Source of the DNA: Candidatus Schekmanbacteria bacterium
GTDB lineage: Bacteria; CSSED10-310; JACPHN01
Direction: 5' to 3'
Assembly: GCA_016188575.1 (NCBI GenBank)
Contig: JACPHN010000077.1
Coordinates: forward strand, 1-39,106
Length of the DNA: 39,106 bases
Shown: positions 23,211 to 39,007 of the stretch, piece after piece
Layout: each line of letters begins with the position of its first letter
Numbering within the stretch: the first letter of the stretch is position 1
Notes under the pieces: model-generated
The model's database searches: none
What the model was told of the DNA's origin: nothing
What the model saw: the letters and a program-made list of their open reading frames with translations, nothing else
Made by a program: the position numbers and the translations under genes

Positions 23211-26024
23211 CTACGCCAGCGATTGCGCGTGGGCGATCTCCGCGCGACACGCCGCGGCCAGGGTGGGATTGGAGATACGCTCGGCCTGCGCGCACGCCTC
23301 CCGGGCTTCCGCCAAGGCGCCGGCGGCGTCACCGCATGCCGCCAGGACGTCGCGAGCCAGCGCGAGTCGCACGCGAATCGCTGCTTCCGTGGCGGGCACA
23401 AGCAGGCTGAGGGCGTCGCGATACAGGCGCTCCGCCTGCACCGGAGCGTACGCGGCGGCGGCTTGCAAGGCGGCGCTGCAGTAGCAGCTCGCCGCCCGGG
23501 ACGGGTCGCCGGCGTGCCGCCAGTGGTCGGCCAGGCCGGCCTTCTCGGCGACGGAGCTCGTGCGGTCGAGCTGCTCCAGGGCGAGCGCGGCGAGAGTATG
23601 CAACCGCCGCGCCTCAGATGGCGACAGCAGCCCGAGCGCCGCTTCGCGCAGCATGCCGTTGCGGAAGCTCCAGGCGGCCTCGCCGGACGGCACGACGATG
23701 CGCTCTCGCTCCGCCATCTCCAGGCACTCTGCGAGGTTCTCGGAAAGCGGCCAGAGCATACGCTGCAGGACGTCGCTGGTAAAGCGCGGGCCGAGGATTG
23801 CCGCGGCCTGTGTCACGCGGCGCACGGGTTTGGGCAAGCGGTCGAGTCGGGCCACGAGAAGGCCGGCGGCGCGCTCCGGGAGCATCCCGTGGGCCACGTC
23901 GGGGAGCTGCTCGGGGGCGCGTGCGCCGAGCTCGCCGCTCTGGCGCACCAGCGCGAGGATCTCCTCGGCGAAAAGCGGGTTTCCACCGCTGCGGTGTTGC
24001 AGGTCGTCGACCAGAGTCTCGGGCACCGCGCTGCCGATGGCCGCCGCCGCCATGCGGCGCAGCCCCTCGCGTGATAGCGGCGTCAGATTCAGGCGCAGGC
24101 CCGGCAGGTCCGCGCCGACGGCGGCGGTTTGCGCGGAGCCGTCGTCGGCGTTGCGGGCGATGAGCACCAGCGCGATCGGCAGGTCGGCGCCCGTGCGGCA
24201 AAGCTCCCGTGCGGCAGCCAGCGAGTCGCCGTCGAGCCAATGAGCGTTCTCGAGCTCGATGACGACGAGCGGGTGAACGGTGGCCTCTGCCCGAATCCAG
24301 GTCGTGATCGCGAGCAGCGTGCTCTCGTGGCTCCGGCGCTGCGCCATCTCGGCGACCTCGCGTACCCCCGGCGGCTGCAGCCCCGCCAGCGTTGCCAGAT
24401 ACGGCGCGGCGCGGCGCAGCTCGGCCCGCAGCGCTGCGTCGGCGAGCGCGAGCTTGCCGGCAAGCGCGTCCAGCGAAAGGCGAAAAGACAGCGCGTTGGC
24501 CGCTTCATCCTTGCGCGGGGACTGGCGAAAGTGGATGCGAATGGCGTGCTCGAACGGATTGAACGGGTGCCTGAAAGTGCCGTCGCACGGCGCTGCGAAC
24601 CACAGGAATCCGGCCGGGCCAAGCCGCGAGGCCAGAGCGCGGCGGGTAGCCGCGACCAAGTAGCTCTTGCCGATGCCGAGGTCGCCGGTAACGTGCAGGA
24701 CCCGGAGGTGGCGCTGGGCGTCTGCGCTGGACAGTTCCGACAGCAAGGCGGCCAGCTCGCGATCCCGATCGCAGAGCGGGGGCTCGAGTGCGGGCCGCCG
24801 CGGGGAACGAAGCCGCAACCGCTTGCGCCGGACAGCGAAGACCGGTACTGATTCCTCGAACCCCTTGAACGCGAAGCGGCCGACGCGGCTCAGGAAGTAG
24901 CCGTGAGCATCGTCGCCAAACAGCTCGCGATCGCACCAGACGGCACCCCAAGGTGCGGTGGACAGCAGCCGTGCCGCGAGGTTTGTGGCCTTGCCGAGGC
25001 AGGCGAGCTCCAAGCGGTTCGTGCCGCCGTTGAACCCGACGTAGCGCACGCCGCGCGAGATGCCGGCGCGCACCTCGAGGGGCGCCGGCGCGGTGTCCCG
25101 AATGTCGATCGCGAAGTCTACGGCGCGCTCGCGGTCGTTTTCCCAGGAGCGCGGAGCGCCGAACGGAACCAGGCAGTTGCCCCCCTTGTCACCGAAGTCG
25201 ATGCGCACGAACGTGCCCCCGTAGGCGGCGCACTTGGCGGCGAGCCAGCGGGTGAGCTCCGGGAGGTCCGGCGCGTTGCGGAACCCGACGAAGGCGGTCG
25301 TGACCATGCGAAACTCGCCGCCCTGAGGCACCTCTTCAGCCCCAAGCGGCACGAAGCGGCAGTTGGCCGGAACGGCGAGCGGCGTCGCGGCCCGCCCGTC
25401 TGGGGCGCGAAACGTAGGGGGGCCGGAGCGGGCATGCTGAGCAGCGGCAATGGCCTGTTGCCACCGCTCCGCCAGCCGCGGGCAGCGCGCGGCCAGGGAC
25501 GCATGAAACACCACCTCACCGGGCGCCGCTCGCTGCTCGGCGCTCGCGCACGCATCGATGCACTCTCCCTGCACGAGGTAAGTGGCGCGCCCGTCGCCGA
25601 TCTCGACGATGTCCCAGGCGACGTCACCGAACGCGACACCGATTCGCGCCGAAAATGCGAACTGCCCGAGGAGGTTCTCATAGCTCGGATGGCAGCGAAA
25701 AAGCTCGCGGCATTGGGCCGCGACGTGCATGACGGAGTCGATCTCAGCACTGGAGGAGCTCTCCGGAAAGACGGCAGTAAAGGCGTCTCCGGCGAACCCG
25801 GCGACGAAGCCGCCGGCCCCATGCACCGCGTCTACCAGCGGATCGAAGTAGAATCGCAGCGCTTCGGCCAGCGCTTCCGCGCCCGCCTTGCCGCCGGCCT
25901 GGTGAAGCTCGGTCAGCGCCGTGAAACCGGTGATGTCGACAAAGAGGCTCGCGGCGCGAAAACCTCCGGAGCGCACGCCCGCGGCGTCGAGCTCGGCGAT
26001 GAGCTGAGGGACGAAAGGATTCAT
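23211..26024 (-). CDS. soluble adenylyl cyclase-like protein (two cyclase domains, AAA ATPase, helical repeats)
   Basis: 937 aa. The architecture is that of soluble adenylyl cyclase (ADCY10): C1, C2, then a large P-loop NTPase module. C1 (about 1-200) has the metal-binding aspartates in LFVDITGFTAL (Asp30) and FAGDAFTAVF (Asp80). C2 (about 235-400) has diverged metal positions (TTAFVGFRNA, FGDKGGNCL) but keeps the LGKATNLAARLL segment that supplies the catalytic Asn and Arg. So the two domains look like a complementary pair. The ATPase has Walker A GDLGIGKS near 446-453 and a Walker B-like LVVIELENAHWLD. The last third is helical-repeat-like (GLADHWRHAGDPSRAASCYCSAALQAA). There is no membrane segment, so it is cytosolic. 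Bicarbonate or Ca2+ response is known for some relatives but cannot be read here. Confidence 0.88.
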   Translation of the reverse strand: MNPFVPQLIAELDAAGVRSGGFRAASLFVDITGFTALTELHQAGGKAGAEALAEALRFYFDPLVDAVHGAGGFVAGFAGDAFTAVFPESSSSAEIDSVMHVAAQCRELFRCHPSYENLLGQFAFSARIGVAFGDVAWDIVEIGDGRATYLVQGECIDACASAEQRAAPGEVVFHASLAARCPRLAERWQQAIAAAQHARSGPPTFRAPDGRAATPLAVPANCRFVPLGAEEVPQGGEFRMVTTAFVGFRNAPDLPELTRWLAAKCAAYGGTFVRIDFGDKGGNCLVPFGAPRSWENDRERAVDFAIDIRDTAPAPLEVRAGISRGVRYVGFNGGTNRLELACLGKATNLAARLLSTAPWGAVWCDRELFGDDAHGYFLSRVGRFAFKGFEESVPVFAVRRKRLRLRSPRRPALEPPLCDRDRELAALLSELSSADAQRHLRVLHVTGDLGIGKSYLVAATRRALASRLGPAGFLWFAAPCDGTFRHPFNPFEHAIRIHFRQSPRKDEAANALSFRLSLDALAGKLALADAALRAELRRAAPYLATLAGLQPPGVREVAEMAQRRSHESTLLAITTWIRAEATVHPLVVIELENAHWLDGDSLAAARELCRTGADLPIALVLIARNADDGSAQTAAVGADLPGLRLNLTPLSREGLRRMAAAAIGSAVPETLVDDLQHRSGGNPLFAEEILALVRQSGELGARAPEQLPDVAHGMLPERAAGLLVARLDRLPKPVRRVTQAAAILGPRFTSDVLQRMLWPLSENLAECLEMAERERIVVPSGEAAWSFRNGMLREAALGLLSPSEARRLHTLAALALEQLDRTSSVAEKAGLADHWRHAGDPSRAASCYCSAALQAAAAYAPVQAERLYRDALSLLVPATEAAIRVRLALARDVLAACGDAAGALAEAREACAQAERISNPTLAAACRAEIAHAQSLA

Positions 26025-26625: not shown

Positions 26626-26739
26626 TGGGTAAAGACTACCATGATCTACACCCATGTCCTCAACCGTGGGCCGGCTGGTGTCCGCAGCCCGTTGACGGAC
26701 TTTGAGGCACTGAGGAGGTTGTTACGCGGATCCGCATAA
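26626..26739 (+). pseudogene. 3' stub of an integron integrase gene
   Basis: The last 38 codons of a tyrosine recombinase. VKTTMIYTHVLNRGPAGVRSP contains the catalytic tyrosine (TMIYTHV), and the LNRG-x-x-GVRSP tail is characteristic of integron integrases (IntI) rather than XerC/XerD. The sequence before Trp-Val-Lys (26605-26628) is unrelated, so the break is sharp. All other catalytic residues are absent and the stub cannot recombine. It ends in TAA at 26737-26739, inside a palindrome. It is on the same strand as the cassette genes, with its 3' end facing them; in most integrons intI is divergent from the array. This may be a rearranged or reverse-type integron. Confidence 0.75.
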
Positions 26740-26851
26740 GATGGCAGGCAGGCCAGACCACGACGCGCGCGTGCCTGATTGCAGCGATTACCCTGATGAA
26801 TCGGTACCCTGTTATGCGGACAGGAACGGCAGGTTTTTCAGCTTATGCGGA
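26722..26851. repeat. cluster of TTATGCGGA repeats
   Basis: The near-palindrome TTACGCGGATCCGCATAA is at 26722-26739, with direct copies of TTATGCGGA at 26812-26820 and 26843-26851 (the last followed by TCCG). They begin at the integrase stop codon and end just before the hairpins. This may be a recombination site or element end associated with the lost recombinase. That role is inferred. Confidence 0.6.
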
Positions 26852-26865
26852 TCCGTCCAATTGTT

Positions 26866-26894
26866 GTTCTTCCGACGCTGCGCGTCGGAAGAAC
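26866..26894. repeat. perfect 13-bp-stem hairpin
   Basis: GTTCTTCCGACGC and its exact reverse complement GCGTCGGAAGAAC, separated by TGC. The arms begin with GTTC and end with GAAC, as do those of the next hairpin and the attC-like site, so this may be a tiny gene-less cassette end. Confidence 0.8.
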
Positions 26895-26909
26895 GGGGCG
26901 CCGGGCAAA

Positions 26910-26955
26910 ACCCGGTTGTTCCGCCGCGCTGATCCGCGCGGCAGAACAACCGGGT
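26910..26955. repeat. 20-bp-stem hairpin with one mismatch
   Basis: The left arm 26910-26929 and right arm 26936-26955 pair over 20 bp with one mismatch (at 26943) around the loop TGATCC. The inner 12 bp read GTTCCGCCGCGC and GCGCGGCAGAAC. The right arm overlaps the R'' box of the attC-like site that follows. Confidence 0.8.
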
Positions 26956-27024
26956 GCAGCGGACAGCGCCCTGCGGTAGTAAGCTACCTCCGAGCGCTGC
27001 CGCTGACCCGGCGCCCCGTTCTAC
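26941..27024 (+). other. attC-like recombination site (upstream border of cassette A)
   Basis: 84 bp. The boxes GCAGAAC and GTTCTAC flank two arms, GGGTGCAGCGGACAGCGC and GCGCTGCCGCTGACCC. The arms pair with an unpaired A and G on the left arm, the extra-helical-base pattern of attC sites. A GGTAG/CTACC hairpin fills the end. The core TGCAGCGGAC is shared with the sites at 31679 and 38940. The boxes are off the usual GTTRRRY consensus. Confidence 0.68.
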
Positions 27025-27390
27025 AGCGCACGAAGACGACGAGCCAAATCGTTACGGCCAAATGGCTGCTATGTAGCTGAACTGAGTGGTTCGAGCGAGA
27101 GATGCCACGTGGTAGGAAGGAAGGCTCTCGGCCCAGCTCGAGTGTGATCAGCAAGCAATCCAGGACGAGAGAATATTGTGACGCCAGAGCCAGCCCTCTG
27201 AAGGTCGCTCCGGAAGGGTTCAAGCGAATTCCAGACGGTGGGGTCACACTCGTTGAATCGTCGCTTCCTGACGTGCTAGAAAGTCGAAGCAGCATGCCCT
27301 GCGGCTGACCTTCCCCCTAGCGGGACCCAACCGTCGGGTGAACGCGACATCCCGGAATTCGTAGTCACTCTATTCCGCCGATTAAGGTTC
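27025..27390. other. leader of cassette A
   Basis: 365 bp with no supported gene. A 68-codon plus-strand frame (27102-27308) has a weak GAG before its ATG and no recognisable similarity. The stretch presumably carries the promoter of the nuclease operon, but no convincing -35/-10 pair could be fixed. Confidence 0.4.
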
Positions 27391-28551
27391 ATGACACACG
27401 GTCATCCCGGCACACCAAAAGATTCCCTGCCTTCGTTGCGGCAGATCCCACCAGCCGACCAAGGCGGACGGATTAGCCGACAAGGATTCGATTACCAAGA
27501 TCATGTCGGGGCGGCATTCTGCCTCGCGATGCATCGAGCCCCAGCCCTTCAAGAGATTTGGTTCGAGTCCCACGACGACCTCGTAATCTGCTGGAATGAC
27601 CAGCAAGCCACCGAGGTGTTTGAGTTCGTGCAAGTAAAGAACGAGAATCTTCGTTCGCGATACTCCGTCGCGGCGATCTCCCGAAGAGAACAGGGAGCCG
27701 TTGGTACATCATTGGCCGAGCGGTCGCTGAACAGAAGTCGATGCCGCGAGCGCACCCAGTTCCGGCTCGTGACCAGCTACGATACTGACGACGAGTTGGA
27801 ACCACTGAAGGTGCCGCTGGCCGACCGAGCCGAGCCGTCCAACGCCAAAAGACTAGGCGTCCTGAAGCAGGCGCTCTTGGAGAAGCTATCCGACGCGTCG
27901 CCCTCACAAGACGGCACCACGATCGATGCCTGGCTAGACCGCTGTCTCTGGGATAAACGTCCGGACACCATCGACGCGCTACGTGCTCTGAACTTGCTGG
28001 AATTGGAGGCGCTTCTTCAATCTGCCGGGCACGACCTGCCGCCCGACATGCGAGACGAACTCTACAGCCGGCTCCTCGCGCTGGTGAAGCAGATGTCGGG
28101 GCCTGGCGGCGCCAACGACTTTCGACTCTCGCGGCAAGCCCTCCTCACCTGGATGGAACAAGCGATTGCTAACCTACGAGAGGGACCTGCGACTCTGTCG
28201 AAACTTGCCGCCAAACTAGAGGCGGCGGGTCTGCGGGAAACATTTGGGAACGCCTCCGACCTTTATTGGGCGTACCGGCGGGAACGCCTCAGCCCCCGAT
28301 ATTCGGATCCTCGCTCGCTGATGCGAGTCGAGCAAGATGTCACTGCAGAGCTCAATCTATTGAAAAGCAGGCTCGATATAGGGCGCATCCAAGGCGGCCC
28401 CGCTTTCCACAATGCCTGCTTGGAAGCCCTGGAACAGCTTCGCGCTCGCGAGGAGCATGCAGGCCAGAAGGTATCCTTCGCGTACTTACAAGGCTATATG
28501 TACTTTCGGACGAACCGTTGTGTTCACCGATTTATGGAAGCACGGCCATGA
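27391..28551 (+). CDS. DUF4297/Cap4-like nuclease, effector of an ABC-3C-type system
   Basis: 386 aa, with AAGG five bases before the ATG. The N-terminal 100 residues match the DUF4297 (Cap4-type) PD-(D/E)XK nuclease fold. GGRISRQGFDYQDHVGAAFCL is the conserved entry segment, followed by the acidic pair Asp62-Asp63 in ESHDDLVI and the Gln-x-Lys motif VQVKNENL (Gln81, Lys83). These would form the DNA-cutting site. The remaining 280 residues are helical and unassigned. They probably hold the interaction part that binds the ATPase partner. The stop overlaps the next start by 4 bp (ATGA). In ABC-3C systems, described bioinformatically as phage-conflict modules, the variable first gene is a nuclease or other effector, held in check by the other two. 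The phage-defence role here is inferred. Confidence 0.75.
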   Translation: MTHGHPGTPKDSLPSLRQIPPADQGGRISRQGFDYQDHVGAAFCLAMHRAPALQEIWFESHDDLVICWNDQQATEVFEFVQVKNENLRSRYSVAAISRREQGAVGTSLAERSLNRSRCRERTQFRLVTSYDTDDELEPLKVPLADRAEPSNAKRLGVLKQALLEKLSDASPSQDGTTIDAWLDRCLWDKRPDTIDALRALNLLELEALLQSAGHDLPPDMRDELYSRLLALVKQMSGPGGANDFRLSRQALLTWMEQAIANLREGPATLSKLAAKLEAAGLRETFGNASDLYWAYRRERLSPRYSDPRSLMRVEQDVTAELNLLKSRLDIGRIQGGPAFHNACLEALEQLRAREEHAGQKVSFAYLQGYMYFRTNRCVHRFMEARP

Positions 28552-29120
28552 GATCGATCCGAAATCTCTCCGCCGTCCCCGCGGGAAGCGCCATCGCTTC
28601 AGACGATCTCCTCGAATACCATGCGGCCCGGATACTTCTCCTCCTTCTCATATGTGGAGCCAATGACGTCGCATCCAGGAGACGTCGGATAGACGGATTG
28701 ACAAAACTTGCGAAGCTCGACTTCTTTGCCCGTTACCCGGATTTTTTCTACCGTATAGCTCGAGAGCTCGGCCAGCATGTCGAGCTTCAACCCGTGACGC
28801 CCGAGGCCAAAATGGTTCGATACCACTACGGTCCATGGGATAAACGCTACTATCAGGTTCTCCCATATTTAGAGGCTCGAGGCTTGCTTGAAGTAAAGAA
28901 AGACGCAACTCGGAACCAGTTCTTATTTTACCTTACTCCTGCAGGTCAGACGATAGCGTCGGATCTCAAAGCCAAGCCCCAGTTTTCTAAACTGGCTTCT
29001 CATATGGCCAGAATTAAATCCGTTGTAGGTGGGAAGTCTGGAAATCAGCTAAAAAATATGATCTATAAGACCTTCGATCGGGAAGTGGCCAATCTTCGTC
29101 TCGGTGAGGTGATCGAGTAA
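28548..29120 (+). CDS. winged-helix middle component of the ABC-3C-type system
   Basis: 190 aa from the ATG at 28548, coupled to the nuclease gene by a 4-bp overlap; the longer frame lies inside that gene. The protein is small and basic-hydrophobic, with a winged-helix look. The helix RRRIDGLTKLAKLDFFARYPDF is the conserved entry of ABC-3C middle components. GPWDKRYYQVLPYLEARGLLEV and FLFYLTPAGQTIASDL give the recognition helix and wing typical of PadR-like folds. A hydrophobic stretch at residues 25-35 (AARILLLLLICG) is part of the fold rather than a membrane anchor. Such components are thought to link the ATPase to the effector and may sense DNA. It ends 1 bp before the ATPase gene starts. 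Confidence 0.72.
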   Translation: MRSIRNLSAVPAGSAIASDDLLEYHAARILLLLLICGANDVASRRRRIDGLTKLAKLDFFARYPDFFYRIARELGQHVELQPVTPEAKMVRYHYGPWDKRYYQVLPYLEARGLLEVKKDATRNQFLFYLTPAGQTIASDLKAKPQFSKLASHMARIKSVVGGKSGNQLKNMIYKTFDREVANLRLGEVIE

Positions 29121-29121
29121 A

Positions 29122-31026
29122 ATGGCTAGAACGCTAATAATCAAGACACTCAGCCGCGAGCGCGGCGACGGCGGCCATGAATCCCTTACGTTCTCCAAGG
29201 GCGTGAATCTCATCGTTGGCCCGCCGAATTCGGGGAAGTCGGCCTGGCTTAAGATGCTGGATTACTTATTTGGGGATCCAGATCCTCCTCAAGACGCCTT
29301 TACATCTGAGCTAGCAGAGAAATACGTCGCTGTCTCGGCAGATATGCAAATTGGTGACAAAGCACTGACACTACAGCGCCGGTGGGATCAACAAGGCTTC
29401 CGATCAAAAATTCTCGTCAATGGTGATGCCATTAGTGTAGACGATCTTTCGGACTTGATTCTAAACCACCTGGACATGCCCAATTTGCATTTTCCGAAGG
29501 GCAACCCCTACTCTGAACGAACGTGGCCTCGCCTCAGTTGGCGTATTCTCATGAGACACATTTATCGACGGGAGCGATTTTGGGCCGACATCGCCGATCG
29601 CCAACCCGAGTCGGAGCAACATGCTGCTTTGGTCATGTTCCTCGGACTAGCTCGACAATTGTTTCCGCCGGAATGGAATCAAGTCATTCAGGCGCGCAAA
29701 GACTTGACGAAACTCCAGGCCAAGCGCGAGCAGTTTGAAGAAGTCGCTGACCATATATCTCGGGAGGTCATTCCTAGCAACCTTCCCATGGCGCAGCTCA
29801 ATCCTATATCGCTGCTAGAGCGCATTCGGATTATCGAGCAACAGATCAGCCAAAATCTTTCTGCGCGCGAACGGATGCTCACACGACTGGCTGAGACGGA
29901 GTCACTGAGTACGACGCCACAAGCGCTTGAACTCTCGACCCAACGGGCCCAAACCATTTCATCTCTCATCAAAGTGCGGGCGAACTGGGAACGTGCAAAC
30001 GCTCGTTCCGAAGAGATAAACGATCTCTACACTACAGTACAATCAGAGCTAGAGCGACTCGAGCGGGCGATGGTCGCCGGGCAGATGCTGGCTGACCTTA
30101 AGATTACCCACTGTCCCGCGTGCGACCAAGAAATCAATAGTCAGCATGCGCCGGAGGGCGTATGCTTCCTCTGCCACCAGCATCTCCCAAGCACACGTGC
30201 TAGTGATCGCCTAGAGTTTGAGTTGGAGCAACTTCGCAAAGAACAGGCGGAACTAGGCCAACTGCGTGAGTCACTTCGAGCAGAACTTGTAACTCTCGCA
30301 CGTGAAGAAAAGGCCCTCCAAGAACGCGTTGAGCAAATAGACGGAGACTTACGACCGTTGCAGAGCAAATTTTCAGCTCTTTTCAATACTCAACTAGGAG
30401 TAATTGACTCGACCAGAGGTGCGCTGCAAGAACAACTTCGTTTGCTGGGACGGATCAAGACCCTTCTGGCCTACCGTGACCAACTAGATCGCGACATAGA
30501 CGCTGCGGCATCGAAGGTCGCCCAACTCGAATCGCTGGTCAACGACTTAATGGCTTCGGTGAGGTTTACGAGCACAAGCAGTGACATCGAAGATTCAATG
30601 CATCACTTCTTTGATGCCCTAAATCAGGGTATCTCCAAGTATGGCATCTCCAGCTCGTTTAGATGGTCTGGTAGTAGGGTTTCTCTTGATCTAAAAGAGC
30701 GGGGATTTCTTTTCAGGATTTCGGGTCGGAAATGGTCCAGCCAGCTTGGAGCGACAGCGGTGGTCCACTTCCTCTTGGCCTATCACTACGCGTTACTGTG
30801 CTTGACGCCCGATGAAGCGAGAAGGTACCCGGGTTTTCTAATTTTGGACTTCCCTGCTGAATTATTGGACGCAAAGACCATCGGCGATAAAGAAAATTAC
30901 TTGATAGAGCCCTTCGTTAATCTGTGTAAGGATACAACCACTCCGCTCCAAGTTATTATTGCGGGGCGCTCATTTCAAGAGATAGAAGATTGCCGGCGGA
31001 TTGAATTCAACCATGTTTGGCGATAG
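29122..31026 (+). CDS. Rad50-like ABC ATPase with zinc hook (ABC-3C-type system)
   Basis: 634 aa. An SMC/Rad50-type ATPase. Walker A is GPPNSGKS (residues 33-40). The first coiled-coil arm runs from about 195. The zinc hook is Cys331-PA-Cys334 ... Cys348-FL-Cys351. The returning arm is Leu/Glu/Arg-rich (FELEQLRKEQAELGQLRESLRAEL). The C-terminal half of the nucleotide-binding domain has a degenerate signature (GATAVVHFLLAYHYALL) and the Walker B-like FLILDFPAEL near 572. The coiled coil is much shorter than in Rad50, as usual for this class, which carries DUF3732-like sequence. It probably senses DNA ends or phage DNA and releases the nuclease encoded two genes upstream. All key motifs are intact. 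It ends 60 bp before the attC of this cassette. Confidence 0.8.
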   Translation: MARTLIIKTLSRERGDGGHESLTFSKGVNLIVGPPNSGKSAWLKMLDYLFGDPDPPQDAFTSELAEKYVAVSADMQIGDKALTLQRRWDQQGFRSKILVNGDAISVDDLSDLILNHLDMPNLHFPKGNPYSERTWPRLSWRILMRHIYRRERFWADIADRQPESEQHAALVMFLGLARQLFPPEWNQVIQARKDLTKLQAKREQFEEVADHISREVIPSNLPMAQLNPISLLERIRIIEQQISQNLSARERMLTRLAETESLSTTPQALELSTQRAQTISSLIKVRANWERANARSEEINDLYTTVQSELERLERAMVAGQMLADLKITHCPACDQEINSQHAPEGVCFLCHQHLPSTRASDRLEFELEQLRKEQAELGQLRESLRAELVTLAREEKALQERVEQIDGDLRPLQSKFSALFNTQLGVIDSTRGALQEQLRLLGRIKTLLAYRDQLDRDIDAAASKVAQLESLVNDLMASVRFTSTSSDIEDSMHHFFDALNQGISKYGISSSFRWSGSRVSLDLKERGFLFRISGRKWSSQLGATAVVHFLLAYHYALLCLTPDEARRYPGFLILDFPAELLDAKTIGDKENYLIEPFVNLCKDTTTPLQVIIAGRSFQEIEDCRRIEFNHVWR

Positions 31027-31085
31027 GTGGAGCGTTAGCCGTCATTTAGTCTGCACAGCCCGGTAGGCCGGAGCTCCAGAGCGCT

Positions 31086-31146
31086 GTAGAACAATGCCAT
31101 GGACTTGACGCTCGCAAGCTCGCGCAAGTCATGGCAGACGTTAGCT
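31086..31146 (+). other. attC site 1 (end of cassette A)
   Basis: R'' GTAGAAC (31086-31092) and R' GTTAGCT (31140-31146). The arms GCCATGGACTTG and CAAGTCATGGC pair with one extra-helical G, the hallmark of an attC. The R'' side is complementary over 12 bp to the start of the same cassette at 27018-27029. Confidence 0.85.
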
Positions 31147-31732
31147 GCACTGAAGAAAGGCAAGGACCATGTCAGACTGGCCGGCAGAATTCCGACGACG
31201 GATGCACCACTTCGGTGCGGTCCACCAGCCTGCACCCGGGGAGACGGCGGTCTCCATCAAGGTTCGGGTTCAGTCCGGGTGCTTCCATCGTGAGCACTCA
31301 CCACGAGCCTATGCCATCATCGACAGGCATCTAGACGAACTCGCACCCGAGGATCTTGAACGCACGTCCTTCGAAGAGCATGAGAGCGGTCCGGAGCTTC
31401 TGGTGTGGCTTGCCGTGGCCACGGCCGGTCTGACGCTCGCCAAGAGCATCGTGGATCTCGTGACGGCCATCATCAAAGCTCGATCAGAGGGTGTGAAGCA
31501 GGGTGACCATCCGTCAGAGCCGCTCGAGCTGATCGTGCGGCGCGTTGGCAATCGTGATGAGCTTCGCGAGGAGGCGATCTTACGAATAGGCCACAACGAG
31601 CCGGTAGCTCCCAAGGAAATCGAGGCGGCACTTGAGCGCGCGCTGGAAAAGTTGCTTCGAGACACTGAGGAGCAAGGCAGCTAACAAGCCGATGCAGCGG
31701 ACGGCGCTGCGCGCCGCCGCTGATGCTGAGCG
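31141..31732 (+). mobile_element. integron gene cassette B (single small gene)
   Basis: 592 bp, a normal cassette. Its start GTTAGCTGC (31140-31148) is the exact reverse complement of GCAGCTAAC (31677-31685) at its own attC, so the rebuilt R boxes match over 9 bp. It carries one gene in the usual orientation. Confidence 0.85.
31169..31684 (+). CDS. small cassette-encoded protein with a central membrane helix
   Basis: 171 aa, starting at an ATG with AAGGA close upstream and only 28 bp after the cassette border. Its TAA stop (31682-31684) lies inside the R'' box of the attC, a common layout in integron cassettes. No named family recognised. The first 65 residues are soluble and polar. About residues 74-100 (LLVWLAVATAGLTLAKSIVDLVTAIIKAR) form one long hydrophobic-to-basic helix that could enter the membrane. 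The last 70 residues are charged (LELIVRRVGNRDELREEAIL, then ALERALEKLLRD). A soluble-helix-soluble layout recalls small effector-associated proteins of conflict systems, but that is a resemblance only. Its place between two defence cassettes makes a defence role plausible, not shown. Confidence 0.75.
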   Translation: MSDWPAEFRRRMHHFGAVHQPAPGETAVSIKVRVQSGCFHREHSPRAYAIIDRHLDELAPEDLERTSFEEHESGPELLVWLAVATAGLTLAKSIVDLVTAIIKARSEGVKQGDHPSEPLELIVRRVGNRDELREEAILRIGHNEPVAPKEIEAALERALEKLLRDTEEQGS

Positions 31733-31738
31733 TTAGAC
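31679..31738 (+). other. attC site 2 (end of cassette B)
   Basis: R'' AGCTAAC (31679-31685) and R' GTTAGAC (31732-31738, a perfect GTTRRRY). The arms GCAGCGGACGGCGC and GCGCCGCCGCTG pair with one extra-helical A around a TGC loop. This is the clearest attC in the window. Confidence 0.92.
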
Positions 31739-31780
31739 CCCTCTGACACGGAACGTGGCGGGTACCGATAAAGGGATGCA

Positions 31781-34700
31781 TTGACGACGTACGACTCAAC
31801 CACCAAGAACCTCCAGCTCGGAGACGTCGTCGCTGGTCTTGAGCCCGGCGAGCTCGTCGCGGTTCAGAGGGTCGAGCCCTTCGGCAGCAAGGTGCTCGTC
31901 GAGGGGATCGGCGCGACGACGCGCCGGCAGATCCGCTGGCCGCTGAGCCTCGAGGAGCTCGGTGCCCTCTCGAAGGTTCGAGGCGCCACGCACAGCTTCG
32001 ACGGCGACCCGAAGACCTCTCTGCTCGGCGCCGAGGCGGAGCGCATCCGCATCGCGCACCAGTTCGACCCGCTCTTCGCGGTCAACTCGAGCATCGTCGA
32101 TCCGCTGCCGCACCAGGTGGAGGCCGTCTACCGCTATCTCCTGCCCCTGCCGCGGATCCGCTTCCTGCTCGCCGACGACACGGGCGCCGGCAAGACGATC
32201 ATGACGGGGCTCCTCATCAAGGAGCTGCTGTTCCGCGGCGTCATCCAGAAGATCCTGGTCGTGACGCCTGGCGGGCTCACGAAGCAGTGGGCCGAGGAGG
32301 AGCTGCTCGGCAAGTTCGGGCTCTACGCGCCGATCGTCAACCGCGCCTCGTTCGACGCCGACCCTTCGCAGTTCTCGCGCGTCGACGAGGGCATCTTCGT
32401 CACGTCCGTCGACTTCATGGCGCGCAACGAGGCCTGCCTCAGCGCCGCCGCGCATGTGCCCTGGGACCTCATCGTCGTGGACGAGGCGCACAAGCTGTCC
32501 GCGTACGAGTACGGCTCCAAGATCGCGGAGAGCGCCCGCTACAAGGCGCTCAAGGAGCTGTCCCGCCGCGTGGACCACCTGCTGTTCCTCACCGCGACGC
32601 CGCACCGGGGCCGCAAGGACACCTTCAGGCGGCTTCTGCTGCTCCTGGACGAAGACCTCTTCCGGAAGGACGAGCATGTCGCCGACCGCGTGCGGGAGCA
32701 GACGGCCAGCTACCCTGACCCGGGGGCGGGCGACAAGTCGATCACCCGCGCGCGCAACCGCTTCTTCCTCCGGCGCCTCAAAGAGGAGATGGTCGACTGG
32801 GAGGGCGGCGCGCTCTTCAAGCCGCGGCACACGAAGACGGTCGGCTACGACCTGACGTCCGAGGAGAAGCAGCTCTACGACGCGGTCACACAGTACGTGC
32901 GGTCGAAGCGGCGAGAGGCCAAGGCGCGCAAGAATCGCCACGTCGAGCTGACGCTGCCCGTCATGCAGCGGCGACTCGCCAGCAGCATCTTCGCAATTAC
33001 GCGAACGCTGGAGAATCGGCTCCGCGCGCTGAACGAGGTGCTCGCCATCCTCCGCGACCCGAATCGCTCGGCCGCGGAGAAGAAGCGGCTCTTCGGCGGC
33101 GCCACCGATGCAGACGCCCCTCGCGACATCGGCGAGTACGAGGAGCTGAGCGAGGAGGAGCGGGACGAGATCGATCGCCGCATCTTCCGCCAAGTCCTCA
33201 CGTCGGACCCGGAGAAGGTCGAGCAGGAGCGCGACGAGATCGATCGCCTCTGCCGAACGGCGAGCGCCCTCAAGCACCACAACGAGGCGAAGCTCGTCGA
33301 GCTGCTGAGGGTCCTCGACTCCTCGGACGTGATCCGCGCCGAGGACGAGAAGCTCCTCAGCTTCACGGAGCACAAGGACACCCTGCGCAGCCTCGAGGAG
33401 CGCCTCACGAAGCGCGGCTACTCGGTGGCGACCATCCACGGGAGCCTGGACGTCGAGGCGCGGAAGCAGGCCCAGCGCGAGCTCCGGACCGCCGCGAAGG
33501 TGATGGTCGCGACCGACGCCGCCGGCGAGGGGATCAATCTCCAGTTCTGCCGCTACCTCATCAACTGGGACATCCCGTGGAACCCAAACCGCCTTGAACA
33601 GCGGATGGGGCGCATCCACCGGAACGGCCAGCAGGACGACGTCTGGGTCTACGACCTCGTCGCCCAGAACACGCGCGAGGGCGCCGTGCTGCAGCGCGTG
33701 CTCACCAAGATGGACGTCATGCGGGACCAGTTGGGCGACGACCGGGTCTACGACGTCATCGACGAATGGCTCGAAGGAGTCCCGCTGGTCGCGTTGATGG
33801 AGATGGCGATCGATGCCGAGGCCCCGGACGAAGGCGGAGCGGAGACAGACGAGGCGCTCAAGCAGGCCACGCAGGAGCGTGCCGAAGATCTCCTAGGGCT
33901 CCAGAAGAGCACGTCGTTGGCCTCCCGGCTCGATCTGCGCGCGGCCCGCGAGCTCCGGGACGCTTCGGACGAACGTCGCCTCCAGCCGCTGTTCGTCCAG
34001 CGCTTCTTCGCGCGGGCGTGGGCCGCCGCCGGCGGCACGATGCAGCGGGACGAGCACTTCCCGGTCTGGCAGTTGAGCGCCACGCCAACGGCGCTGCTCG
34101 ACCTCGCCCGCGAGCGGAAGGCTGCCGTCCCCGACCGGCTGGACACGCCCGTCCTCTTCGACAAGCAGCTCGTCAGCGTGGCGAGCAAGGTCCGCGTGCC
34201 CGAGCGCACGAAGCTCCTCGGTCCCGGGCACGCGCTCTTTGACACGCTCATCGAATGGGCGATCCGCGAGGCGCGGGCAGCGGGCCCTCGAAGAGCAGCG
34301 CCGGCTGTTCTACGTGGCGATCACTCGGGCGCGCCCGACGTTGGTGCTGTCCAGCGTGACGCGTCTCCCGCGTGCGGACGCGTGCCGGTTGGGGGCACGC
34401 GTCCAGGGGCACAGCAACCATGCCCCCACCGTCACGTCCCGCTTCCTGAACGACCTTGGCCCGTCGCGGCCTGCCGCGATATCCGGCGCCGCGATCCTCG
34501 CGCCAGCGGCAGCAGCCAGTGGAGGATCCCCGTGAGCACCGACTACTGCCCGCGGCTCATCGAAGCCTCGAATGACATGCCGGGTTCAATCGCCGACAGG
34601 GATTATCGACGGGCGCTACTGACCTATCTCGCGTTCTGGATCGACGGCGTCGCCGTATTCGGAAACTCGATGTGCCGCTGGAACGCAGCAAGGGAGGCGA

Positions 34701-35407
34701 TCCAGAAGGCGGTTGGCGAGGCCGTTCACCGTTTCTGGAGCTACGGCTTCCGCGGCGCCGACCTGATCGTCTCGAGCTACGGTCCGGCCGTCGGGGTCTT
34801 CGGCAAGTACGAGCGCGTCGAGCGCGCCGATGGCACGCCGGTCGCGGTACCCGAGCTTCTGGACTTCGCGCGCCAGGCCGCCCGCGACGCCATCGCCGGC
34901 GAGTTCCGCGGCGACAACCTCTCCACGCTCTACTACGTCTGGGCGAACCTCTACGGAGCCGCGGAGCAATCGTGGGACGACGCGCGGCTGGTCGTGCAGA
35001 TCGGCGGTGAGGCCGAGAGCGCCATGGACGTCGCCCGGCGCGACGGGGTCTTCGTCATTGATGGCCCGAAGTGCCGGCGCGCCTTACTCGCGGACCGAGC
35101 GGACCGGCGTGGGCTCGGGGTCGATCCCAACCCGCCGCTGATCGACGCCCTCCATCGCGCGATGCTGCTGTGGAAGAATGAGCAGCGGGGCGAGCTCGTC
35201 GGATACCTCGCGGAGCGCGGGCTGCTGGATGAAACCCGCTTCTGGATGCTCGCGCAGGCTCTCTTCGAGGTCCTCCCGCGCGACCGCGAGGACTCGAAGC
35301 TGGTGAGCGCGCTCCTCGGTGAGCGCGACACGTTGAGGAGCGGGGCCAAGCGCTCGGCTACGCCCAAAGCCCAACGGAGCTTCTTCGAGACAGGACACGG
35401 GAGATGA
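31781..35407 (+). CDS. SNF2-like helicase, open in frame into a DUF1156 fragment (chimera)
   Basis: 1208-aa open frame with a TTG start and AAGGGA just upstream. Residues 1 to about 832 are an SF2/SNF2-family helicase of the kind found with DUF1156 and DUF499 genes and similar to DrmD. The LGDVV entry is followed by motif I DDTGAGKT near 132-139, motif II DEAH at 234-237, LFLTATPHRG, then the C-terminal lobe HGSLDVEARKQAQ, ATDAAGEGINLQ and QRMGRIHRNGQQ. The homology stops near 34278 (IEWAIREAR). Next come about 85 residues of meaningless sequence, which is a UvrD-like fragment read in the wrong frame. From about 34532 the same frame is the DUF1156 remnant. The helicase motifs are intact but its C-terminal domain is missing. 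It starts 43 bp after attC 2. Confidence 0.82.
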   Translation: MTTYDSTTKNLQLGDVVAGLEPGELVAVQRVEPFGSKVLVEGIGATTRRQIRWPLSLEELGALSKVRGATHSFDGDPKTSLLGAEAERIRIAHQFDPLFAVNSSIVDPLPHQVEAVYRYLLPLPRIRFLLADDTGAGKTIMTGLLIKELLFRGVIQKILVVTPGGLTKQWAEEELLGKFGLYAPIVNRASFDADPSQFSRVDEGIFVTSVDFMARNEACLSAAAHVPWDLIVVDEAHKLSAYEYGSKIAESARYKALKELSRRVDHLLFLTATPHRGRKDTFRRLLLLLDEDLFRKDEHVADRVREQTASYPDPGAGDKSITRARNRFFLRRLKEEMVDWEGGALFKPRHTKTVGYDLTSEEKQLYDAVTQYVRSKRREAKARKNRHVELTLPVMQRRLASSIFAITRTLENRLRALNEVLAILRDPNRSAAEKKRLFGGATDADAPRDIGEYEELSEEERDEIDRRIFRQVLTSDPEKVEQERDEIDRLCRTASALKHHNEAKLVELLRVLDSSDVIRAEDEKLLSFTEHKDTLRSLEERLTKRGYSVATIHGSLDVEARKQAQRELRTAAKVMVATDAAGEGINLQFCRYLINWDIPWNPNRLEQRMGRIHRNGQQDDVWVYDLVAQNTREGAVLQRVLTKMDVMRDQLGDDRVYDVIDEWLEGVPLVALMEMAIDAEAPDEGGAETDEALKQATQERAEDLLGLQKSTSLASRLDLRAARELRDASDERRLQPLFVQRFFARAWAAAGGTMQRDEHFPVWQLSATPTALLDLARERKAAVPDRLDTPVLFDKQLVSVASKVRVPERTKLLGPGHALFDTLIEWAIREARAAGPRRAAPAVLRGDHSGAPDVGAVQRDASPACGRVPVGGTRPGAQQPCPHRHVPLPERPWPVAACRDIRRRDPRASGSSQWRIPVSTDYCPRLIEASNDMPGSIADRDYRRALLTYLAFWIDGVAVFGNSMCRWNAAREAIQKAVGEAVHRFWSYGFRGADLIVSSYGPAVGVFGKYERVERADGTPVAVPELLDFARQAARDAIAGEFRGDNLSTLYYVWANLYGAAEQSWDDARLVVQIGGEAESAMDVARRDGVFVIDGPKCRRALLADRADRRGLGVDPNPPLIDALHRAMLLWKNEQRGELVGYLAERGLLDETRFWMLAQALFEVLPRDREDSKLVSALLGERDTLRSGAKRSATPKAQRSFFETGHGR
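34281..34535 (+). pseudogene. C-terminal fragment of a UvrD/PcrA-like helicase
   Basis: It lies in a different frame from the helicase above. ALEEQRRLFYVAITRARPTL is motif VI of superfamily 1 helicases (RRLFYVAITRAR), followed by a family-like tail with TSRFLNDLGPSRP. It stops at the TGA at 34533-34535. Nothing upstream of Ala-Leu-Glu-Glu in this frame is helicase-like. So a junction near 34278 has joined the SNF2-like gene to the last 85 codons of a second helicase gene. The stop overlaps the GTG start of the DUF1156 remnant, which suggests these two were once neighbouring, coupled genes. Confidence 0.72.
34532..35407 (+). CDS. DUF1156-family protein lacking the methylase core
   Basis: 291 aa if it starts at the GTG at 34532, which has GGAGGA six bases upstream and overlaps the preceding stop (GTGA). 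DUF1156 proteins (COG1743) are large adenine-specific DNA methylases, several times longer than this. The piece keeps a short N-terminus (CPRLIEAS), then YRRALLTYLAFWIDGVAVFGNSMCRW, and the C-terminal region (GADLIVSSYGPAVGVFGKYERV, STLYYVWANLYG, LIDALHRAMLLWKNEQRGEL). No catalytic NPPF or DPPY motif occurs anywhere in it. So the catalytic middle is deleted and it cannot methylate DNA by itself. It may be translated separately or as the tail of the 1208-aa frame. It belongs to the defence module completed by DUF499 downstream. Confidence 0.65.
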   Translation: MSTDYCPRLIEASNDMPGSIADRDYRRALLTYLAFWIDGVAVFGNSMCRWNAAREAIQKAVGEAVHRFWSYGFRGADLIVSSYGPAVGVFGKYERVERADGTPVAVPELLDFARQAARDAIAGEFRGDNLSTLYYVWANLYGAAEQSWDDARLVVQIGGEAESAMDVARRDGVFVIDGPKCRRALLADRADRRGLGVDPNPPLIDALHRAMLLWKNEQRGELVGYLAERGLLDETRFWMLAQALFEVLPRDREDSKLVSALLGERDTLRSGAKRSATPKAQRSFFETGHGR

Positions 35408-35464
35408 TCAGCGATCCCCTCCTGGAACGTGTCAGAGAGATCGCAGAAAGAGGAGTCACCCTCT

Positions 35465-35785
35465 ATGGATGAGGAAACCCAACAGGTCGTTCGTGAATAC
35501 CGCGAAGGTCTTGAGAGTCTGTTCGGTGACCAGCTTGTCGGCATAACCCTCTACGGTTCCTTCGCCCGGGGAGAAGGGCGCGAGGGTTCAGATATCGACA
35601 TCTTGTGCGTCCTCGACGGCCCGTTCGACTACGGAGAGGCCATCCGGAGATCCTCCGAGCTGACCGCGAATCTGAGCCTGGCGCATGACGTCGTTCTGTC
35701 GCGGGTCTTCGTATCGGAGGCGGATTTCAAGACCCGCAACCTGCCATTCCTCATGAACGTCCGACGCGAAGGGGTGCCGGCGTGA
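35465..35785 (+). CDS. MNT-type nucleotidyltransferase (antitoxin-like)
   Basis: 106 aa from the ATG at 35465, with AGAGGAG about ten bases upstream; an in-frame GTG at 35429 is less likely. It is a minimal nucleotidyltransferase of the MntA/MJ0435 class. The signature GSFARGEGREGSDIDILCVL gives GSF at 31-33 and the metal-binding Asp43 and Asp45. MntA-type proteins can transfer AMP to their HEPN partner and silence it. The stop overlaps the HEPN start (GTGA), a typical two-gene toxin-antitoxin arrangement. All motif residues are intact, unlike the surrounding decayed genes. It sits between the DUF1156 remnant and the DUF499 gene, so it could guard or regulate that module. This is an inference. 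Confidence 0.85.
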   Translation: MDEETQQVVREYREGLESLFGDQLVGITLYGSFARGEGREGSDIDILCVLDGPFDYGEAIRRSSELTANLSLAHDVVLSRVFVSEADFKTRNLPFLMNVRREGVPA

Positions 35786-36186
35786 ACGAAGACCTCGAGT
35801 TGCTCATGACGAAGGCGCAGGAGAGCGTTTCGGCCGCGACGCTTCTCCTCGATCAAGGGTACCACGGTTTCGCCGCCTCCCGGGCTTACTACGCGATGTT
35901 CTACGTCGCCGAGGCGCTTCTGGCTTCTCTCGGGAAGTCGTACAGCAGTCACGCTGGCGTGCTCGGCGCCTTCGGACAGGAGTTTGCCAAGACCGGGAAA
36001 CTGGATGTCAAGTTTCATCGCTGGCTGATCGATGGGCAGGACATCCGGAATGTGGGCGACTACGGGGTGGGGACCGAGGTATCCAGAGAGCAGACCGTCG
36101 AGGTGATCTCCCGGGCTGAAGAGCTCATCGGGGTTGCCCAGACACACCTTCGTGGCGAGGGAGGGACCGAACATGACCGGTCTTAG
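35782..36186 (+). CDS. HEPN-domain protein (toxin-like partner of MNT)
   Basis: 134 aa from the GTG at 35782, coupled to the nucleotidyltransferase gene by a 4-bp overlap. It is a HEPN fold of the PF05168 type: HGFAASRAYYAMFYVAEALL is the core helix with Arg34, followed by SSHAGVLGAFGQEFAKTG and a C-terminal helix (SREQTVEVISRAEELIGVAQTHL). Toxic HEPN RNases carry an R-x4-6-H motif. Here the residues after Arg34 are AYYAMFYVAEA with no histidine in range, so RNase activity is uncertain and the protein may be a non-catalytic partner. Its 3' end overlaps the start of the DUF499 gene by 14 bp. It looks intact. Confidence 0.82.
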   Translation: MNEDLELLMTKAQESVSAATLLLDQGYHGFAASRAYYAMFYVAEALLASLGKSYSSHAGVLGAFGQEFAKTGKLDVKFHRWLIDGQDIRNVGDYGVGTEVSREQTVEVISRAEELIGVAQTHLRGEGGTEHDRS

Positions 36187-38945
36187 ACCCTGGTACGCAG
36201 TCGCCACGCCGCACGAGGACATCCGCAAGGGCAGGCTAAGCGAGGCCGTCTTCGCCGCCAACGTCTGGGCCGTCGTCCAAGGAACGGCCCCGGAGGTCTA
36301 CCTCGATCCCGAGGAGTTCTTCCGCAAGAGTACATGACCAACGGCCTCGCGACGATGCTCTCCCACGTGGCGCGAGCGCTCTCGGGGTCCAAGGACGCCG
36401 GCGACCGTGTCATCAGCCTCCAAACCTCGTTCGGCGGCGGAAAAGCGCACACGCTAGTCGCCCTCTGGCACCTGGCCAGCACACAGACGCCATCCGGACC
36501 TCGCCGGCCTGTGCGGCCGTGCGCCGAGCTGTCGGCGGCGAGCTGCCCGCCGGGCTCAAGGCCGTGGCCGTCTTCACAAACCGGACCTGCGATGCGACGC
36601 AGGGCCGCCGCACGCCCGACGGGATTCAAACCCGTACGCTCTGGGGCGAGCTCGCCGCTCAGCTCGGAGGGCAGGAGCTCTACGAGAAGGTGCGCGCCAA
36701 CGACGAGACGCAGCGCACGACTCAGGGCCTGTTCGCTGACGTGCTCCAGGCGGCCGCTCCCTGCCTGATCCTCCTCGACGAGCTCGCCGACTACTGCGTG
36801 GGGGCCGCCGCCGTCCCAGTAGGCGACAGCACCCTCGGCGACCAGACGATCTGCTTCATCCAGGAGCTGACCGAGGCCGTGCAGGAGGTTTCCGGCGCCG
36901 TCGTCGTCGCCACGCTGCCGGCCAGCAAGATGGAGGTGGCCCAGAGCGAGAAGGGGCAGGAAGCCTTCGTTACGCTGGAGAAGCGGTTCTATCGGCTCGG
37001 TGCCGACGTGAAGCCGGTAGCCGACGAGGAGATCTACGACGTCGTCCGCACCCGCCTGTTCGAGTCCGTCAGGCCGCAGGGCGATCCCGACTACCCCAAG
37101 AAGGTCGCTGCCGCCTACCAGAGCATGTACACGGATCACGAGCGCGAGGTGCCCTCCGAGGTGTGCAAGGCGAGCTACCGAGAGGACATCGAGCGCGCGT
37201 ACCCGTTTCACCCCGCGCTCATGGACGCGCTCTACAAGCGCTGGGGGAGCCACCCGGACTTCCAGCGGACGCGCGGCGTGCTCCGGCTGCTAGCCACCAT
37301 CGTCGGCGACCTGTGGCACCGCCGCGATGCGACGACCCAGTCTCAGCCCCTCATCCAGCCGTGCCACGTGCAGTGGGGCCTGGATCCCCTGGGCGCGGCG
37401 CTGACGCGCCTTTGGGGCCAGGCCTACCAGTCGGTCGGCGCGGCCGACATCGTCGGCGAGAAGTCGAACGCCGGCATCTTCGACGAGGAGCGCGGGGACG
37501 AGTACCGGCGCGAGGATATCGGCCGGGGGATCGCGTCGGCGATCTTGCTCGGATCCTTCGGGGGCCAAGGGGATCGCTCGGGCTCCAGCGCCAAGGACGT
37601 CAAGGTCGCCTGTTCGCGCCTTGGGCTGAACTGGAGCTACACGGACGGCGCCCTGCTCGAGTTGGAGAACCGCTGCTTCTACCTGCACACGGCCTCGGCC
37701 GGAAACCTCGGGAAGCGCTACTGGTTCGGCACCAAGCCCACGCTGAACAAGCTCGTCGTGCAGTACCGCCAGCGCGTCGCCGCGGAGGATTTCGAGCAGG
37801 AGATCATCGAGAGCCTGAACGAGCGCATCCGCTCGCTGAGCCGCCAAGCTGCGACCTGGCGGGTGGTCGTGGATCCAAACGTGGAGCTGCCCGAGCAAAA
37901 GAGCCTCGCGCTCCTGCTCCTGCCGCCGGCGCTGGCCTACGGCGACGACCAGGCATCCCAGAAGCCGGTCCGGGACAGGGTCATGGAGATCAGCCAACGC
38001 TGCGGGGGCAAGGACCGCCACTACCGGAACACGCTCGTGTTCCTCGCCGCGAGCAGCCGGGGCGTGTCCAAGCTCAGGCGTGCATTCCGGGAGCGAGAAG
38101 CGCTCCTTGGAGTGCGCCGCGACTACTCCGAGCAGCTCGCCGAGGACCAGCGGGAGGATCTCCGGAAGCGGCTCGATGAGGCCGAGCGCATGGCGATCGA
38201 GACGCTCGGCCCCCGGTACGTCGTGGCGCTCCGCGTCCACCGCCAGGAAGTCGAGGTCGCCACCCTCACGGACGCTCGTGCCGCCCTCGACGACCACCTG
38301 GAGTACCTGTGGACCGCGCTCGTGGATGACGAGGAGTGGATCCTCCGCCGCGTCGGCGGCGTCACTCTGGAAAAGGCCGGGCTCGTGCCGAAAGAGGGTG
38401 CGTTTCGCGTCAAGGACGCGGTGGACGCGTTCCGCCGGTTCACGGACAAGCCGCTCGTCGCCTCGAAGGAGGCCGTCATCAACGGGCTGACCCACGCATG
38501 TGCGGACGGGCTCATCGGCATAGCTCGCGGTCCGAGCGCGACAACCCCACAGGCGCGCTACTGCCGCACGTCCGTGTCCATCGACCCCAGTGAGGACGGG
38601 GTGTGGATCATCCCCCCGTTCACGGAGGAGACGAAGCCGGCGACGACGTGCGGGAGGGACACCGTCACGCCGCAGCGCCCAGCGCCACCCGTCCGGCGCG
38701 TCCGGATCGAGGGAGCTCTCCTCCTGGAGAGCTACAACGAGCTCTTCCGCTGCTTCGTCGCACCCGCGGCCCGCATGAACCTCAAGCGGCTGACGCTGGG
38801 TGTCCAGTTCCGCCTCGAGGCACGGGACTCCGCGCCGCTTGACCCCAACGACCCCGCCCTCAAGGCGATGCGGGAGGCTGCTCGACAGCTCGGATTGGAT
38901 CTCCAGGTGGAGATCGAGACGGATGAGAACCAGAGAGGGGTCTAA
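36173..38945 (+). pseudogene. DUF499 AAA-type ATPase (COG1483) with two frameshifts
   Basis: Three frames together give one DUF499-like protein of about 920 aa. Frame 1 (36173-36337) reads LRPWYAVATPHEDIRKGRLSEAVFAANVW and ends after PEEFFRKST. Frame 2, from about 36331, reads YMTNGLATML and then the P-loop region LQTSFGGGKAHTLVALWHLA. Frame 3 takes over at about 36480-36486 (HTDAIRTSPAC) and is open to 38945. It includes CLILLDELADYC (Walker B) and EKRFYRLGADVKPV. Each shift is explained by loss of one base. So either the gene is decayed or the contig has two base-calling errors within about 160 bp. The longest piece, starting at the GTG at 36519, would lack the P-loop. In this family the ATPase works with the DUF1156 methylase and helicase. 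The stop codon lies in the R'' box of the last attC. Confidence 0.78.
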
Positions 38946-39007
38946 CATCGCGATGCAGCGGACGGTCCGTTTCGCGGGGGTGTCCGTCCGGAATGTGGGA
39001 CTTAGCC
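38940..39007 (+). other. attC site 3, degenerate (end of cassette C)
   Basis: R'' GTCTAAC (38940-38946) is perfect and is followed by ATCGCGATGCAGCGGACGG, the same arm as in the other sites. The right half pairs only over CGGACGG/CCGTCCG, and the R' reads CTTAGCC (39001-39007) instead of GTTAGCC. The left half is certain, the right half weak. The next cassette would begin at 39002. Confidence 0.6.

Follow-up and report, generated by a model that had tools for sequence, protein, structure and literature searches.

Gene-less and multi-gene defence cassettes in an integron array of Candidatus Schekmanbacteria

Layout of the array and contents of the cassettes

Four consecutive segments that we read as an integron cassette array were found in a stretch of 39,106 nucleotides from Candidatus Schekmanbacteria bacterium (assembly GCA_016188575.1, contig JACPHN010000077.1), referred to here as the window. 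The array starts from an attI region, which is followed by a gene-less cassette made up of an attC only, a Lamassu operon (cassette 1), a small-gene cassette (cassette 2) and an Hma-like module (cassette 3) whose attC is cut by a mobile element (Table 1). An initial annotation of this DNA had listed three segments, and all of its end matches are exact, pairing 27018-27029 with 31081-31092 (12 bp), 31140-31148 with 31677-31685 (9 bp) and 31732-31744 with 38934-38946 (13 bp). It had not listed the gene-less cassette at attI, a fourth segment that follows the same end rule with 26866-26878 matching 26882-26894 over 13 bp, so that each of the four segments starts with bases complementary to the R'' of its own attC. 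Such complementarity is textbook integron biology, and the logic of the initial annotation is therefore sound, if not new. The first bases of a cassette (TT...) and its own R'' would derive from opposite sides of a single R' box of the excised circle, and the circle would carry a matched attC reading GCGCTGTAGAAC...GTTCTACAGCGC.

Cassette 1 carries an LmuA nuclease, an LmuC protein and the SMC ATPase LmuB in a single operon. The LmuA-like protein scores best to HamA models as well. Plasmid homologues of LmuB align over its full length with up to 38% identity, and no match to LmuB was found in a sequence search of solved structures. Judged by its ends, this intact 4.1-kb operon behaves as one cassette, and it is presumably active. 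Its composition is like that of Lamassu type II/DdmABC, where a Cap4-nuclease protein, a small third protein and an SMC-like ATPase are found in one operon, although the published example lies in a genomic island (PMC12409362) whereas the operon here lies inside a cassette. No match in Pfam, PADLOC or NCBIfam, and no plasmid or viral relative, was observed for the 171-residue protein of cassette 2.

The contents had been described as two multi-gene defence modules and one small gene. This stands for the Lamassu operon, but the Hma-like module in cassette 3 is probably inactive, although assembly error is possible for the frameshifts in HmaC. Of the expected components HmaA, HmaB methylase and HmaC, HmaA is present. 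HmaC has two frameshifts, near 36336 and 36500, with its N-terminus crossing three frames, and no HmaB match was found among the open reading frames examined between HmaA and HmaC. The place expected for HmaB is occupied by a toxin-antitoxin-like MNT/HEPN pair (35429-36186).

The attC of cassette 3 retains R'' GTCTAAC and L'' ATGCAGCGGACGG, and the covariance model described below (R1) gave no score at 38940-39007. The end of an insertion-sequence-like repeated element (GTGTCCGTCCGGAATGTGGGAC...) starts near 38975, with copies at C43:46728-46856 and C29:63-191 on other contigs, and this attC is thus interrupted. The motif 'ACTTAGCC' near 39000 was considered as an R' box and rejected, as the sequence there is the end of the repeated element. 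A 13-mer that is almost identical to the element terminus, ATCCGGAATGTGG, is also found within the HEPN gene, around 36045. Neither Rfam matches at gathering thresholds nor tRNAs were found in the window.

Table 1. Positions of the annotated features. Coordinates refer to the window unless a locus handle is given; energies are for bottom-strand DNA folds.
Feature	Coordinates	Strand	Evidence and remarks
intI 3' remnant	26629..26697	+	IntI residues 291-313 of TIGR02249, 27.4 bits; in the direction of the cassettes
attI region	26720..26866	+	Ends AATTGTTG/TT; common to C140 and C159
Gene-less cassette, 152 bp	26867..27018	+	attC only; 13-bp own-end match; attC part 26941-27024, 45.2 bits; circle -86.0 vs array -74.1 kcal/mol
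Cassette 1, 4122 bp, Lamassu operon	27019..31140	+	12-bp own-end match; attC 31086-31146; no internal attC above 13.2 bits
LmuA-like effector, Cap4 dsDNA endonuclease domain	27391..28551	+	PF14130 E 1.8e-21; PADLOC HamA/LmuA models
LmuC-like protein	28548..29120	+	PADLOC LmuC E 1.3e-16; start overlaps lmuA stop
LmuB-like SMC ATPase	29122..31026	+	PADLOC LmuB E 1.7e-40; Walker A motif GPPNSGKS
attC of cassette 1	31086..31146	+	R1 61.5 bits; circle -28.6 vs array -17.2 kcal/mol
Cassette 2, 592 bp	31141..31732	+	9-bp own-end match; attC 31679-31738
171-residue protein, no family assigned	31169..31684	+	Stop codon inside R''
attC of cassette 2	31679..31738	+	R1 62.1 bits; circle -26.2 vs array -19.8 kcal/mol
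Cassette 3, at least 7.24 kb, Hma-like module	31733..38974	+	13-bp own-end match; right end lost to mobile-element end
HmaA-like SNF2 helicase	31781..35407	+	PADLOC HmaA E 1.8e-157
MNT nucleotidyltransferase	35429..35785	+	PF01909 E 5.2e-12
HEPN protein, MNT partner	35782..36186	+	PF05168 E 4.8e-14
HmaC-like DUF499 ATPase	36174..38945	+	PADLOC HmaC E 2e-90 on 36519-38945; stop codon inside R''
Half attC (R'' + L'') of cassette 3	38934..38974	+	13-bp match; no covariance-model match
Repeated mobile-element end	38975..39106		Copies on C29 (98%) and C43 (97%); contig stops inside
Gene-less units elsewhere	L082:7125-7254; L083:7126-7254; L080:2763-2915, 1857-2007, 5139-5241		Layout scan

attC structure, attI and the exchange point

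Many sites of similar form were found across the genome with a simple AAC...stem...GTT search. The model R1 was built from an alignment of 15 short attCs of this genome, two of them from the window. The classical pairing of the R boxes and of the L boxes, with two unpaired bases in the left arm, holds in 89.5% of the cells of the alignment compared to 71.3% in shuffles, and 44 cells are altered on both sides compared to 14.2 in shuffles, a count reached in none of the 500 shuffles. None of the shifted versions of the pairing comes near these values. This conserved structure with its unpaired bases on one arm is present at three sites in the window (26941-27024, 31086-31146 and 31679-31738). 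Of the three attCs claimed initially, two score strongly, at about 62 bits, both being members of the R1 training set, and the third is the half site of cassette 3; outside the three scoring sites the window gave nothing above 13.2 bits. When applied to the intI loci of other organisms, R1 found 40 attC matches at 19 of 43 loci, mostly 3' of intI and on its strand, which is independent support for the model. The genome search and the stretches examined together gave at least about 68 attC sites, and the attC counts for this genome are lower bounds. The circular attCs of cassettes 1 and 2 and of the gene-less cassette were rebuilt and folded as bottom-strand DNA, as the initial annotation had proposed, and all three circles are more stable than the array forms by 6 to 12 kcal/mol (Table 1).

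The window has an attI with an exchange point at G/TT. Positions 26640-26880 are 92% identical to the DNA downstream of an intact intI on another contig, C140, and the same attI is found at C197, C140 and C159, followed in each case by a different first cassette at one G/TT point. In addition, C115 holds a diverged copy of this attI, and a second attI type is common to C88 and C177. Compared side by side, the attI copies with different cassettes are direct evidence for the G/TT exchange point. The possibility that such segments are never split there is contradicted by this one attI with its three first cassettes and by the occurrence of the gene-less unit in about 17 contexts. The attI region is framed by an inverted repeat (CGGATCCGCATAAG / CTTATGCGGATCCG, 26727-26855) that is retained in the C140 copy, and TTATGCCGA-like motifs follow intI in a second genome from this phylum (L187).

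Because the intI of this locus is a stub, we class the locus as a cassette array that has attI but a truncated intI, and not as a complete integron with an intact intI beside attI. Intact intI genes occur on C140 (476.7 bits) and C88 (424.2 bits) and could act on the array in trans, and broken copies are found on C177 and C7. Among seven other genomes of the phylum, one has an intact intI. The arrangement is like that of chromosomal integrons with the integrase in the cassette direction, such as Nitrospira and Synechococcus loci, where attI lies 3' of intI and the attCs follow downstream on the intI strand. The closest relatives of intI have 56-76% identity, and this layout is found at most of them. 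Unlike those integrons, the window retains a stub of intI only, and the genome has two intact intI genes, several broken ones and attI on several contigs. The truncated intI adjoins a gene on the reverse strand (23211-26024) for a 937-residue protein with class III cyclase and AAA_16 ATPase domains, which gave weak PycC-like PADLOC matches.

Large defence cassettes and alternative explanations

Large cassettes are not confined to the window. A segment of 9.4 kb on contig C43 (C43:49393-58808; L176) contains a five-gene type III-D-like CRISPR-Cas effector module in which both Cas10 and the Cas7/Cas5 RAMP proteins of a type III effector are represented. The genes encode Cas10, a Csx10-like Cas5/Cas7, a Csm3/Csx7-like protein, a TIGR03986 RAMP protein (185 bits, above the cut-off) and a CARF/Csm6-like protein (CARF-HEPN). 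The module is preceded by a gene-less cassette and is bounded by an attC of 44.6 bits whose R'' gives a 9-bp match to the start at the exact position, and by these marks it behaves as one cassette. No CRISPR array was found in the loci examined. Four near-full Cas1 matches occur on other contigs (C200, C228, C158 and C174), so the cassette-borne module could receive CRISPR RNAs in trans. Two further segments were rejected as proven large cassettes as they fail the end test. One of them (C102:149886-159276; L032) holds the type I restriction genes HsdS and HsdR, a PDC-M23B helicase and a 125-residue HsdM fragment, and is flanked by two gene-less cassettes, while in the other (C56:80626-86750; L031) attC sites flank genes for an Avs2-like protein of 1393 residues and a viperin-like radical SAM protein.

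We consider, at a probability of roughly 93%, that the segment of the window is an integron cassette array from attI and that its units are true cassettes. The cassette boundaries, the attC structure with its covariation, the attI and the gene-less copies in multiple contexts can all be read from the DNA itself, and IntI would have moved the defence cassettes of 4-9 kb as single circles. The claim that the end matches mark true cassettes draws support from the covariance model, the circle folding and the genome-wide counts. In these counts, which took in 25 cassettes and left the gene-less units out, the start matches the cassette's own R'' over at least 8 bp in 14 of the 25 cassettes, compared to 12 of 552 mismatched pairings. 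In an unrelated genome, JPNA_maxbin.176, one cassette follows the same end rule over 11 bp. A rival reading is that the end matches are chance inverted repeats of GC-rich DNA with no integron involved, and in its favour 32 exact inverted 12-mer pairs occur in the region without anchoring, 21 of them more than 400 bp apart. Since such pairs are frequent by chance, length alone is weak evidence and it is the GTT anchoring that decides; among the 12-mers that begin with GTT, just the two claimed ones pair at a distance of more than 200 bp. GTT-anchored 9-mers number six in the region, and the 9-bp pair of cassette 2 is not convincing alone but takes its weight from the attC at the same place. With the anchoring, the genome-wide statistics and the attI copies added to the covariance model and the cross-pair control, by which it is refuted, chance is left with a negligible probability.

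The remaining alternatives concern whether the large segments have moved as units. They might be fused cassettes, or ordinary stretches of a defence island between attCs after the loss of internal attCs, that never moved as one unit. Cassettes fused through attC loss are known (PMC4670013), and the segments on C102 and C56 do hold defence genes between attCs and fail the own-end test. Fusion, however, pairs the start of one cassette with the attC of another and thereby destroys the own-end match, which these segments keep, over 12 bp for Lamassu, 13 bp for Hma and 9 bp for CRISPR, and the window is free of internal attC remnants above the 13.2-bit level, so that we regard this explanation as very improbable for them. 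Alternatively, a defence operon inserted by some other mechanism may have enlarged a small cassette that has stayed in place since, and the own-end match would then be kept. The stretch of about 370 bp before lmuA, in which no gene is recognised, and the position of the MNT/HEPN pair in the Hma-like module fit such a history, yet it would require three unrelated modules of such size in one genome to arise by one event each, and in both cassette 2 and cassette 3 the final gene stops inside R''; we hold it to be unlikely, though less so than fusion.

Several observations weigh against our reading of the segments as true cassettes. The intI of the locus is a stub, no excised circle has been seen, and a small cassette already in place might have gained its defence operon by other means. 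Matches of 9 bp, as in cassette 2 and the CRISPR cassette, are weaker than those of 12-13 bp, and by the end test the segments on C102 and C56 indicate that some large stretches between attCs are composite. Apart from attC similarity, DNA of the Lamassu cassette has no further copy in the genome; the Hma cassette has no second location either, and no rearranged relative of the two was seen. Finally, the assembly is a draft (275 contigs, 93.8% complete, 3.7% contamination) that breaks at these repeats.

Gene-less cassettes and their significance

In the gene-less cassette, the R' start and R'' pair into one hairpin across a 3-nt loop. The genome has about 17 full copies, with roughly 86-97% identity, unrelated neighbours and sharp G/TT edges, and changes on both sides were found in 13 of 49 pairs when these copies were taken together with two Nitrospira copies. 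Several contigs end at or beside gene-less units. A layout scan of the loci examined found the same layout with different sequence in Nitrospira nzgw278 (L080), JPNA_maxbin.176 (L082) and Syntrophaceae UBA6255 (L083). The units of L082 and L083 start about 180 bp past intI, that is at attI, and the unit is multicopy in the L080 and L082 genomes. The same scan gave no match in 2.86 Mb of shuffled sequence nor in 90 kb of other DNA of this genome. Neither a DNA search of 78 other genomes nor a pattern-based DNA scan across the collection of named genomes gave a match to the unit itself. Compared to shuffles, the folds of gene-less units are better by 9.5 to 10.8 standard deviations, the one in the window being folded as its first 108 nt on the top strand. 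The bare attC units range from 102 to 153 bp, and in most of them a side hairpin lies between R'' and L''.

Most likely, the gene-less unit spreads as a non-autonomous hitchhiker because it is hardly more than a very stable attC, which may be the minimum needed by the integrase. Alternatively, these cassettes may be copies made by homologous recombination, or regulatory cassettes that act as promoters or insulators. Gene-less cassettes of Vibrio and Treponema, which likewise are without an open reading frame and lie inside arrays or in first position, do carry DNA beyond attC with promoter activity (PMC11014356, PMC6557892). Compared to those, where size controls are 450-650 bp, the units here are multicopy bare attCs of 102-153 bp, with nothing beyond the attC as the 3-nt loop indicates, and a scan for sigma-70-like promoters in the unit, a weak test, was empty. 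The sharp G/TT edges with unrelated flanks and the three other genomes that have the layout with different sequence also argue against recombination or regulation, an explanation that we find doubtful but still well within the plausible.

In defence cassettes of Vibrio chromosomal and mobile integrons, as in this array, anti-phage genes are carried as attC cassettes, but the Vibrio cassettes are small (PMC12409362), whereas here a three-gene Lamassu operon and a five-gene type III-D-like CRISPR-Cas module have the marks of cassettes. Defence systems with more than two genes, among them CRISPR-Cas, have been reported as absent from integrons, and recombination is said to force defence systems in integrons to be streamlined (PMC12409362). 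We tentatively propose, at a little short of even odds, that attC-only cassettes of 102-153 bp form a class of non-autonomous integron parasites and that some integrons mobilise whole defence operons of up to 9.4 kb, type III CRISPR-Cas among them, as single cassettes. Members of the class would be recognised by an R' start and R'' in one hairpin, to which a side hairpin is often added between R'' and L'', would multiply through arrays as miniature inverted-repeat transposable elements do with transposases, and would occur with the same layout and different sequences in several lineages. Integron cassettes are usually thought to be small and mostly single-gene. Lamassu and type III CRISPR-Cas cassettes of 4-9 kb would contradict the streamlining limit and make it testable, while at the other extreme attC-only cassettes would come close to the lower size limit of an integron-mobile element.

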